Shown one piece after another: positions 25-4,996 of a stretch of DNA of 32,389 bases. How positions within the stretch are numbered: the stretch's first letter is position 1; the number at the start of each line of letters is the position of its first letter. The notes beneath the pieces were generated by a model. That model made no database searches, was not told where the DNA came from, and worked only from the letters and a program-made list of their open reading frames with translations. Origin of the DNA: Thermoplasmatota archaeon (GTDB taxonomy: Archaea; Thermoplasmatota; E2; DHVEG-1). The position numbers and the translations under genes were made by a program. Location of the stretch: assembly GCA_016936135.1 (NCBI GenBank), contig JAFGPP010000002.1:1-32389 (forward strand). Direction: 5' to 3'.

Positions 25-462
25 TTATTCGGGTTTTCTACTAAATACTCGTTTTTCCATTTCATTAATTTCGTATTCAAGTTGCATGAGATTAAAATCA
101 ACACCAAACTCTTTGATAATTGAGCTATAATTAGATTGTACGCTGCGGGCTATTTCCCTTATAAAATAGTGCCCAGCATCAGTACCTAAAACCTCATTCA
201 TAGAAGAAACAATGTCGTAAAGGGCTTTTCCAAAATCATTTTTAGAAATTGAATCTAGATTAGTCATAATAGAAACATTTTCTCCCCCCTCGAGAAATGT
301 TGTATCCTTGAGACTTACATTTCTTAGAAAATCATATTGTTTTTCTAATTTTTTCATAACTTTATCCATAACAAAAACCGCGTGGCTTTCATTTGTCTTT
401 CTGCTGGATACTGCAATAAGAGTTTCTAGAATGTGTTTTAATACATCAGAATTTTCAACCAT
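25..462 (-). CDS. Single-domain protein, same new domain as the triple-repeat protein at 3300-4520
   Basis: I do not recognise a named family. The 145-residue product has no signal peptide or membrane segment and is predicted cytoplasmic. It aligns along its whole length with repeats 1 and 3 of the protein at 3300-4520. Shared points are an N-terminal helix of the type hhxxLExLI, an R-(K/T)-(T/S) turn followed by a helix with A, an 'SL' strand, a segment ending in 'FIRE', and the C-terminal 'GV(D/N)F-x-LMQLEY' signature. The ORF also opens with GTG at 471. I prefer the ATG at 462 because its N-terminus then matches that of the paralogue. A TATA box lies upstream at 513-523. It may partner or compete with the triple-repeat protein; that is inference. 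Confidence 0.75.
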   Translation of the reverse strand: MVENSDVLKHILETLIAVSSRKTNESHAVFVMDKVMKKLEKQYDFLRNVSLKDTTFLEGGENVSIMTNLDSISKNDFGKALYDIVSSMNEVLGTDAGHYFIREIARSVQSNYSSIIKEFGVDFNLMQLEYEINEMEKRVFSRKPE

Positions 463-2241: not shown

Positions 2242-2577
2242 ATGTACGACGAACAGGTTAGGTATTCTTCTCTTGATTTAAAACGGCCTTTGATAATACG
2301 TGCACTTAGGCGTAGTGCTGTAAGGAAGAAAATTGCTGAATATCTATTTGATATTAATCCTAGTTGTAGTTACACTTCTGAAATTGCTTATCATGTAAAA
2401 ACAACTCCGTCCAATGTAATAGGTGCAATAAGAGGCATGAAATCAAGATATAGGGAAGATGAATCCCTTATAAGTTTAGATATAGTTGAAGAAAAAACTG
2501 GCGGTAACAATATAAAACTTTACGGACTAACTTCATTCGGAAGAGAGATTCTTGAATCGCTGAAAAGAGCCGATTAA
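2242..2577 (+). CDS. Archaeal winged-helix transcriptional regulator
   Basis: The 111-residue protein has the layout of a widespread euryarchaeal regulator family: a short acidic N-terminus, 'IIRALRRSAVRKKIAEYL', a helix-turn-helix at about 40-70 ('SYTSEIAYHVKTTPSNVIGAIRG'), the 'RYREDESLISLDIVEE' helix and a wing ending 'KLYGLTSFGREIL'. DNA binding is expected through TTPSNVIGAIRG. No ligand or sensor domain is present. It lies alone, with upstream TATA-like sequences near 2210. Its target is unknown; the neighbouring surface-protein and response-regulator genes are candidates by proximity only. Confidence 0.85.
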   Translation: MYDEQVRYSSLDLKRPLIIRALRRSAVRKKIAEYLFDINPSCSYTSEIAYHVKTTPSNVIGAIRGMKSRYREDESLISLDIVEEKTGGNNIKLYGLTSFGREILESLKRAD

Positions 2578-2923
2578 ATTGTATTTTTATTAAATCTTCC
2601 CTTCATTTCAATCGTGCCGTTATTTTTCCATAACGGGCAGAAAAACAATATTATGATTTAACATATATACGATTTATCTTGCAGATTAAAATTAAAGATT
2701 TTACTCCCAACAATGCTAAATTTCAATATAAAAATATTTGATTGCATCCGATAATTAGTTGCCATCAAATAAAACTAATGTGTACAACTGTTACAAATTT
2801 TAACTATTATTATCTTCATAATTAAAAGGTTAAATTTTTATCCAAAAACCGCATTACAGTTTAATACTTAGTAATTAGGAGGATTAGGGATAGGGATATT
2901 CAAACTTTTAACGGGTGGAAAAA
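2578..2923. other. 346-bp intergenic region before the response regulator
   Basis: No credible coding sequence or tRNA was found here. It holds an imperfect hairpin (2615-2639) just after the winged-helix gene, a long AT-rich stretch, and a TATA-like GTTTAATACTT at about 2859-2869 that could drive the response regulator. A GGAGGA motif at 2879-2884 has no start codon in range and so looks non-functional as a ribosome binding site. Confidence 0.5.
2615..2639 (+). terminator. Hairpin downstream of the winged-helix gene
   Basis: TGCCGTTAT (2615-2623) pairs with ATAACGGGCA (2630-2639) across a six-base loop, giving nine pairs with one bulged G. It starts 38 bp after the stop codon at 2577. No T-tract follows on this strand, so it could be an RNA-processing or mRNA-stability element rather than a true terminator. 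Confidence 0.35.
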
Positions 2924-3307
2924 ATGTCTAAAAAAATTATGGTAGTTGATGATAACCCCAGTATAATTTTTTCAGTAAAAGAAGGGTTGGAACTTATAGA
3001 TGATACCTACGAGATTATTGGTGCTGAAAGTGGTGAAAAATGTCTAGATTTATTAAAATCTGGAAATTTACCTGATTTAATTTTGCTAGATATAATGATG
3101 CCTGGAATGAATGGATGGGATCTTTTTGCTGAATTAGATAATAATTCACAATGGAAAAAAATACCGGTGGTATTTTTGACAGCAAAAACTGATGTATACA
3201 GTACAGGTTTCGGAAAACTTGTAAGTACAGATTATATTGAGAAACCTTTTGATTTAACAGACTTAAAAAAACGCATTGATAATATATTAAAAAGAGAAAA
3301 TGTCTAA
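2924..3307 (+). CDS. CheY-like response regulator, receiver domain only
   Basis: This is a stand-alone receiver domain of 127 residues. With the ATG at 2924, the acidic pair is at Asp9/Asp10, the phospho-acceptor Asp56 is in 'LILLDIMMPG', the switch Thr is in 'VVFLTAKT', and the conserved Lys-Pro is in 'YIEKPFD'. No output domain is attached. An in-frame GTG exists at 2915, but GGGTGG at 2913-2918 looks like the ribosome binding site for ATG 2924. The stop codon overlaps the next start by 8 nt, so the downstream three-domain protein is its most likely partner. No histidine kinase lies in the window, so the kinase must be encoded elsewhere. Confidence 0.92.
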   Translation: MSKKIMVVDDNPSIIFSVKEGLELIDDTYEIIGAESGEKCLDLLKSGNLPDLILLDIMMPGMNGWDLFAELDNNSQWKKIPVVFLTAKTDVYSTGFGKLVSTDYIEKPFDLTDLKKRIDNILKRENV

Positions 3308-4520
3308 ATCATCCAATAGTTATCTTATATCTCGCATCTTGGAAGTTTTAATACAAAAGGTAGCCAGAAGAACTTCAAAGCAGTTCGCAATAGAAACAAT
3401 ACAGAAGGTCGTCCAAAATTGTCAGAAATCTTGTGATGTTATAAAATATATTTCATTAAACAAAGACCCGTACTTGGAACTTAGCGAAATCGTACAAGTA
3501 GATAAGTTAATAAATTCCGTAGACCCACAGGAAGTATTTGTTGCTGTAGAGGAGATTTTGAAGTTTACCGTAAAAGATTTGAAAAAAAGTGCTGATTACT
3601 TTTTTATACGTGAGTTTCAGGAGGCAGTGGATGATATCGACCACCTTAGAATTAACACCGAGGATATGAATTTAGGCGTAATGCAGTTAGAATATATTAT
3701 AGATAGAAAACAATCGCAGTTAATGAAAAAGAATGAGCTTATTTTTAATGTATTGAAGGCACTAATATTTTCGTTAAATCGATATTACAATGATGAAAAG
3801 GTCATTGAAATTATAAAAGAATCAATAGAGTATCTAAAAGATGTTTATGTTTTTCTTGATTATGTCCGCATTTCTAAAAAAACTGATGGTGAAGGTTTTT
3901 ATCTAATCGATGTGGGCGGAGAAATCAACGATACTTTGTCTTATATTTTAACAGAGGGAATGCAAAAATTCCTAGAATATACTATAAACAAAACTGATTT
4001 GGAGAATAAGAATTCTATAATAGACGATTTAAAGAAAGATCTGGGAGAAAAAAATCTTAACGAAATCGAAAATTTTGGGGTTAAGCTAGATAGAATCAGG
4101 ATAGAAAAATCAAGATACGAAGAAAAAGATATTATAAAAAAATCGCTAGAGTCGCTTATAAAAGTCATTGGTATGAGAACTTCCGATAAATTTGCAGTTA
4201 CTGTAATATCTCATATTCTTGAAAATCTTAAAAAAAGTAATGAAAACTCACCTTTACGCATGATTTCCATAGATATTACAGCAAATTCTTCAAATTTACC
4301 TGATTTTTCTATAGATATTTCTCCAAATATCAAATATGCTGGTACAAGGGAGATTGCTAAGGGATTGCAAGAAATTGTAAAAATGGCAGGCACTCATTTG
4401 GGCAATAAAACAATTTCATTTGTTAATGATTTTAAAAATCAGCTGGGTAACAATTATGTCACTGCTATGCAAGATCTGGGTGTAAATTTTCAGCTCCTAG
4501 AATTCAAATTTGGTTCCTAA
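3300..4520 (+). CDS. Three-domain protein of an unrecognised family, coupled to the response regulator
   Basis: The 406-residue protein has no signal peptide, membrane segment or domain I can name. Internal comparison shows three copies of one ~130-residue domain: about 4-137, 142-275 and 276-406. Repeats 1 and 3 are clearly alike (xxLExLI, R-T-S-x-x-FA, 'ISL/ISI', A-x-x-I-x-x, then 'MQLEY' or 'LLEFKF' at the end). Repeat 2 is more diverged and carries a charged helix (about 225-275) that may be a coiled coil. The same domain stands alone at 25-462. Because the start overlaps the response-regulator stop by 8 nt, translation is probably coupled and the two proteins are made in fixed ratio. It could be a phosphorelay output or scaffold; the function is unknown. 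Confidence 0.85.
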   Translation: MSKSSNSYLISRILEVLIQKVARRTSKQFAIETIQKVVQNCQKSCDVIKYISLNKDPYLELSEIVQVDKLINSVDPQEVFVAVEEILKFTVKDLKKSADYFFIREFQEAVDDIDHLRINTEDMNLGVMQLEYIIDRKQSQLMKKNELIFNVLKALIFSLNRYYNDEKVIEIIKESIEYLKDVYVFLDYVRISKKTDGEGFYLIDVGGEINDTLSYILTEGMQKFLEYTINKTDLENKNSIIDDLKKDLGEKNLNEIENFGVKLDRIRIEKSRYEEKDIIKKSLESLIKVIGMRTSDKFAVTVISHILENLKKSNENSPLRMISIDITANSSNLPDFSIDISPNIKYAGTREIAKGLQEIVKMAGTHLGNKTISFVNDFKNQLGNNYVTAMQDLGVNFQLLEFKFGS

Positions 4521-4552: not shown

Positions 4553-4885
4553 TTAAAGCCACCTTCTTGCTTTCATTCTGACAATGGGGTCGTCAGTAAT
4601 TTCAATGATCTTTTTTGCAAGATTCTCGAATCCTTCGACAGTATTAATATCGAATTCGCCAAGTAATCTTTCCTTTATCTGTGGTACCTTTTTTTGTTGG
4701 GAATGTTTCAAATGTTCAATACCATCTTGCATTTTTGTTTGGAGTTCAGTTGATACATCAATTTCCTCCAACTGTCTTTCTAGCAAATTAGAAATAAAAG
4801 CCGACCGATCTCCAATAATGTTTTCTCTATCTATCCTATCAATCATCTCTGCAGGCAATTCCAAGAAAATTGTTTTCCGGTCCAT
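4553..4885 (-). CDS. Ribbon-helix-helix protein, probable DNA-binding regulator
   Basis: The N-terminus 'KTIFLELPAEMIDRID' followed by 'DRSAFISNLLERQLEE' is the ribbon-helix-helix pattern: a short beta strand that enters the DNA groove, then two helices that dimerise. The C-terminal half (about 55-110) is helical and charged, with no known domain. The ORF begins at 4897 (an extra MLFC), but a TATA-like CTTTAAAATA near 4909-4918 would place transcription start at about 4889, so the ATG at 4885 gives a leaderless gene and a typical RHH N-terminus. It is convergent with the three-domain gene and no toxin partner is adjacent. Confidence 0.7.
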   Translation of the reverse strand: MDRKTIFLELPAEMIDRIDRENIIGDRSAFISNLLERQLEEIDVSTELQTKMQDGIEHLKHSQQKKVPQIKERLLGEFDINTVEGFENLAKKIIEITDDPIVRMKARRWL

Positions 4886-4996
4886 ACAAAAAAGCATTGG
4901 ATAATAAGTATTTTAAAGTTTGTTTTAATGGTAAATCGGCAAATTACATAATTTAAAAAAAGGTAAAAACAGATTTTGGTATTATATTAGGTATTT

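Follow-up and report, generated by a model that had tools for sequence, protein, structure and literature searches.

A triplicated domain encoded beside a stand-alone receiver: a candidate output arm or adaptor in archaeal two-component signalling

In the window (the whole stretch of 32,389 nt of Thermoplasmatota DNA analysed here), the gene of a stand-alone response regulator overlaps the gene of a protein made of three copies of a domain of ~135 residues, for which we use the name DOM (and DOM3 for the triple protein). The domain defines a multi-copy, lineage-specific family, and in two separate architectures receiver (REC) and histidine kinase (HK) genes are its most conserved neighbours. 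We suggest, with a probability of roughly 0.6, that DOM proteins act in archaeal two-component systems as an output or adaptor arm encoded by genes of its own, and DOM is probably how these archaea convert a received signal into action. The tie between DOM and receivers or kinases is one of gene neighbourhood, from which we infer a contact between the proteins, its dependence on phosphorylation and its final targets. Among archaeal response regulators, about 40% are REC-only; protein-protein contacts are expected as their mode of action, yet how such bare receivers act is an open question (PMC5847659). The DOM family offers candidate partners: its genes are often apparently co-transcribed with receivers or kinases, and it combines a compact domain and a confident structural model with three clear architectures. 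Because these partners are compact and confidently predicted, the question becomes testable with two small recombinant proteins.

Gene structure of the receiver/DOM3 pair

The features of the window are collected in Table 1. The receiver gene was assigned to the ATG at 2924 and ends with TAA at 3305-3307; in the open reading frame listing the frame begins with GTG at 2915, i.e., within the GGTGG motif, and the ATG was preferred here. Its product matches PF00072 over residues 5-118 of 127 (Pfam scan, E 1.4e-22), and alignment with other receivers showed that the acidic pair, the phospho-acceptor Asp, the Thr and the Lys are each present. With these residues and no further domain it is a REC-only response regulator of the CheY/Spo0F type, as the initial annotation had recognised. 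In lacking an output domain of its own it resembles FilR2 and other REC-only regulators of methanogens; for the FilR2 system no coupled DOM partner has been described, and its second REC-only protein has no known role (PMC11784639).

The second gene begins with ATG at 3300 and the receiver's stop codon falls inside that start, so that the two genes share exactly 8 nt (ATGTCTAA), in agreement with the earlier reading. Because gaps between -13 and +5 nt were found in seven of nine REC-DOM3 loci, fixed stoichiometry of the two proteins via translational coupling is plausible.

Table 1. Features of the window discussed in the text
Feature	Position	Strand	Evidence
Single-DOM protein, 145 aa (fourth DOM copy)	25..462	-	profile E 4e-48
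EarA-like archaellum transcription regulator	2242..2577	+	PF07381 E 1.4e-25
Probable ribosome-binding motif GGTGG 5' of the receiver gene	2914..2918	+	sequence reading
Stand-alone receiver (REC), 127-aa response regulator with intact catalytic residues	2924..3307	+	PF00072; alignment with other receivers
Gene overlap ATGTCTAA, 8 nt (DOM3 start/receiver stop)	3300..3307	+	sequence; open reading frame list
Triple-DOM protein DOM3, 406 aa	3300..4520	+	open reading frame; profile; aligned orthologues (alignment A1)
DOM copy a, residues 2-138	3303..3713	+	profile E 6e-37
MQLEY segment, close to where copy a ends	3681..3695	+	sequence
DOM copy b, residues 140-276, the most diverged copy	3717..4127	+	profile E 3e-27
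DOM copy c, residues 271-406	4110..4517	+	profile E 6e-31

That DOM3 holds three copies of one domain, proposed earlier at ~130 residues each, was borne out by the profile matches and also by profile-free comparison of single sequences (a-c 2.6e-7, b-c 2.2e-5, a-b 0.005). The supposedly conserved 'MQLEY' end holds in part: within DOM3 it occurs in copy a only, and the solo gene also has it, but copies b and c end in IRIEK and LEFKF, respectively. The full end of copy c is GVNFQLLEFKF, where relatives have a GVNLHxIELK type, and G394 and N396 are invariant in alignment A1. The initial annotation did not mention the fourth copy, which is encoded on the opposite strand at the beginning of the window. 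Immediately downstream of the DOM3 gene, 4553-4897(-) encodes a small protein with a ribbon-helix-helix-like start by eye, for which the one weak Pfam match was DUF7201 (E 0.0026).

The DOM family: fold, architectures and distribution

No Pfam or NCBIfam model matched DOM proteins above its cut-off, and PHROGs and PADLOC gave scattered weak matches, none convincing; the view that the domain matches no known family therefore stands. In profile searches of PDB sequences, scattered matches to KaiB, EndoA and designed proteins (E 0.003-0.7) were regarded as noise. An AlphaFold2 model of a single DOM, generated from a 120-sequence alignment, had a pLDDT of 91.6 and a pTM of 0.86 and starts with two helices and a short one, followed by a two-stranded hairpin, then a long helix and a final three helices. 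The domain had been expected to be mixed alpha/beta; the short hairpin agrees with this, but the model is predominantly helical. The DOM3 model (pLDDT 82, pTM 0.42) has three folded units whose relative placement is uncertain. A Foldseek search of PDB and BFVD with the single-DOM model returned zero matches at E <= 0.001, and the DOM3 model was likewise without a structural match; MarR-like matches of the latter (probability ~0.1) were discarded.

The best-ranked PDB match of the single-DOM model was H-NOX, and archaeal REC-associated domains, MetOD1 among them, are related to the ligand-binding HNOB/V4R domains (PMC5847659). Together with the position of DOM genes next to kinases as well as receivers, this would fit a sensor that binds a ligand or cofactor and passes its signal to kinases and receivers, in contrast to an output that takes the signal from them. 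We consider such a sensor unlikely: the H-NOX match is insignificant (E 0.48-0.77, probability 0.21-0.51, TM 0.23-0.34, rmsd ~7-11 A), so that an H-NOX/V4R fold was not accepted, no His or Cys that could hold heme or metal is conserved in DOM, and an output accounts better for the tandem triplication and for the joining of DOM to a probable DNA-binding part.

Phosphotransfer proteins of the Hpt type have an invariant phospho-accepting His and form a four-helix bundle. Like Hpt and ChpT, DOM is mostly helical and is encoded with two-component genes, and it could thus be imagined as an intermediate that carries phosphoryl groups between receivers. However, none of His, Asp and Cys is conserved among the 120 sequences (column maxima of 22% for His and 51% for Asp), the predicted secondary structure differs (helices and a beta hairpin) and the model does not form a simple four-helix bundle. 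Because DOM lacks a conserved phosphorylatable residue, a phosphorelay step is highly improbable. Of the earlier proposal that DOM3 is the output or scaffold of a phosphorelay, output or scaffold remains the best reading, given the conserved linkage described below, while a relay carrier does not fit the absence of a conserved His or Asp.

We also considered that DOM is a known domain that has diverged past sequence search, with MetOD2 as the example, because three of 28 members match PF18548 (best E 0.0026). These matches are below the model's cut-off; when genomes were searched, the DOM matches were located C-terminally in one solo subgroup, and control genomes that are unrelated matched equally well at E up to 1. 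A profile of the class's clearest MetOD2-like regions did not resemble DOM (hhalign probability 0.8%). Therefore, kinship with MetOD2 was not upheld, and we regard a hidden relative of this kind as very improbable. To our knowledge, MetOD2 has been described as confined to Methanocellales and Methanomicrobiales; in five loci from other families of the same class (L123, L132, L133, L146, L147), response regulators carry, fused to their receiver domain, a C-terminal helical part whose match to PF18548 stays below cut-off.

A profile search covering 45 genomes of the window's family-level lineage and 345 other genomes of its phylum found DOM in 36/45 and 0/345, respectively, with as many as 13 matches in a single genome. 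In the window's own genome there are five DOM genes, which together hold nine domain copies; a match to a UDP-glucose dehydrogenase (L008, E 0.2) was a false positive. With a single triple protein as query, two named records were obtained, both from 'Thermoplasmatales archaeon' MAGs, and scanning viral contigs with a solo DOM gave no match. Three architectures occur: solo proteins of ~140-175 aa, DOM followed by a C-terminal part (~285-345 aa) and triple proteins of ~400 aa. In the loci read, no receiver or kinase was fused to DOM, the longest listed DOM frame being 446 aa. In a domain tree (six label changes versus a minimum of four), the class with the C-terminal part forms one group and the copies of triple proteins group by position, copy a of the window's DOM3 with copy a of other triple proteins; because of this grouping, the triplication appears to be ancient.

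HalOD, MetOD, NitrOD and TackOD are archaeal REC-associated output domains (Galperin et al. 2018, PMC5847659). DOM shares with them a lineage-specific occurrence, small size, a tie to archaeal receivers and an obscure biochemical role; domains of the HalOD/MetOD type often have many stand-alone copies per genome, and the narrow lineage and several copies per genome of DOM are of the same kind. Unlike them, DOM was never found fused to a receiver in the loci read. It also differs in building a triple protein of fixed form, in being combined with a probable winged helix and in lacking a match to any MetOD model above cut-off. Because the defining fusion is missing and none of the known domains matched above cut-off, we did not file DOM under them; at most, it works like a detached version of these domains.

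Receivers and kinases beside DOM genes

We read the neighbourhoods of ~70 DOM genes, up to ~5 kb per side, at loci chosen from the best matches and not randomly. Linkage to receivers in relatives, for which the initial annotation had suggested a tally and whose absence it would have counted against a partnership, was found: a receiver gene lies directly upstream on the same strand of 9/26 triple genes, with gaps of -8, 28, 4, 1, 3, 2, 5, 62 and -13 nt, and a receiver or kinase gene lies within 650 nt of 15/26. Because genomes of the family hold just 3-15 receiver genes, an upstream receiver would be expected by chance for <1% of genes. Gene runs of HK-REC-DOM3 are present in L069, L074, L075 and L078. 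In Pfam checks, kinases were identified in L069, L074 and L075 and receivers in L069, L072 and L074; all neighbours checked in this way (L069, L072, L074, L075, L098, L103, L108, L110) are receivers or HisKA/HATPase proteins.

A tree of triple-DOM proteins separates a clade with kinase genes downstream, a clade associated with Lhr helicases and a mostly receiver-linked set that holds the window's gene. In the receiver-linked set (n=12 loci), REC (9) and HK (5) are the only neighbours within five genes that recur in more than three loci, and the other flanks are reshuffled. The window's DOM3 and its receiver each group as sister to the L084 gene in their respective trees (supports 96/90 and 88/79). 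Four of the six loci of the kinase-downstream clade have a divergent receiver gene upstream; the order in this clade (L070 7773-8936; L071, L077, L080, L082, L083) is conserved, a kinase being followed by a HAMP-PAS-PAS protein without kinase domain and an aminotransferase-like gene. The receiver linkage is not universal: in the eight loci of the Lhr clade (L063 (4801-6009), L064, L065, L066, L067, L068, L073, L079), the triple gene follows directly on an Lhr-type helicase gene and neither a receiver nor a kinase gene is close by; both are likewise missing beside the second triple gene of the window's genome (L022). In five of the eight Lhr loci, the triple gene is followed by genes identified by sequence reading as HMG-CoA synthase-, thiolase- and DUF35-like.

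Accordingly, DOM could be a general scaffold or dimerisation module without a tie to phosphorylation, its operons with receivers reflecting co-regulation only. A whole clade of triple genes beside lhr helicase and HMG-CoA synthase-like genes, solo copies beside archaellin genes, both without receivers, and a negative mirror-tree test point in this direction; the latter, a distance-correlation test of little power on nine REC-DOM3 pairs, gave no correlation (r 0.11, p 0.31). On the other hand, in two separate DOM architectures receivers and kinases are the best-conserved neighbours although the rest of the flanks varies, and intergenic gaps are a few nt or the genes overlap. We therefore find an untied scaffold rather unlikely and prefer an output or adaptor that works with receivers and kinases.

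The second of these architectures is DOM with a C-terminal part. A kinase or receiver gene lies within 1 kb in 11/24 of these genes, and at 22 loci HK (11) and REC (8) are the top neighbours, the next commonest occurring in five. In the window's genome, one such gene (L024) overlaps the preceding kinase gene by 4 nt, and in L110 one overlaps a preceding receiver gene in the same way. The C-terminal part looks like a winged helix, a probable DNA-binding element, by matches that all stay below threshold: most of the top PDB matches are winged-helix regulators, MarR-type chains (E 0.1) among them, and several winged helix-turn-helix Pfam models matched weakly (best 0.0014, 5/22 members, none above cut-off). 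Genes of this class occur in tandem in L101 (4931-6574) and L115 (4916-6562), the first being shortened and without the winged-helix part.

Proposed role and the archaellum neighbourhood

Our working hypothesis is that a kinase encoded elsewhere phosphorylates the window's stand-alone receiver, and that the phosphorylated receiver, made beside DOM3 through the overlapping genes, would bind at least one DOM copy and thereby change what DOM3 holds or releases. Triple proteins would, thus, relay the state of a receiver or kinase to a client. Because DOM is also joined to a probable winged-helix part, the same contact would reach transcription at DNA in that class, and solo DOM proteins may pass the signal to neighbouring archaellum genes or to an archaellum-related step. 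More tentatively, this one structurally unclassified family might serve archaeal two-component systems generally as a detached output module that occurs alone, in triplicate or next to a DNA-binding part. If true, the module would link stand-alone receivers to transcription, the archaellum and other machines in this lineage, which would account for the way its REC-only regulators work.

In archaea, CheF (PF04283) is the adaptor that connects CheY to the archaellum. A solo DOM protein at an archaellin locus would be CheF-like in being a separate protein that carries a receiver signal to its target, but PF04283 was not matched by any DOM protein in our Pfam scans. CheF itself was found in only three genomes (3/27 family genomes; also given as 3/45 searched), and archaellins in 19 of 27 family genomes searched; DOM may provide a kinase-to-archaellum route in archaea where the known adaptor is mostly not found.

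Nine retrieved solo genes of the window's type are followed on the same strand, at a distance of 184-951 nt, by archaellin genes (archaellins confirmed by PF01917 in L085, L086, L088 and L091); other solo genes, e.g., L093, L095 and L111, are not upstream of archaellins. In the window and eight other loci, a gene for an EarA-like regulator is 1.4-1.9 kb from the solo gene. The window's archaellin genes would fall past the contig edge. Because the receiver/DOM3 pair follows the EarA-like gene, it adjoins the archaellum locus here, and in L081 the triple gene itself precedes archaellin genes. The order of EarA, two small secreted or lipoprotein-like genes, solo DOM and archaellins is conserved, the loci with an EarA/solo-DOM neighbourhood being window 25-462(-), L085, L086, L087, L088, L089, L090, L091, L092 and L062.
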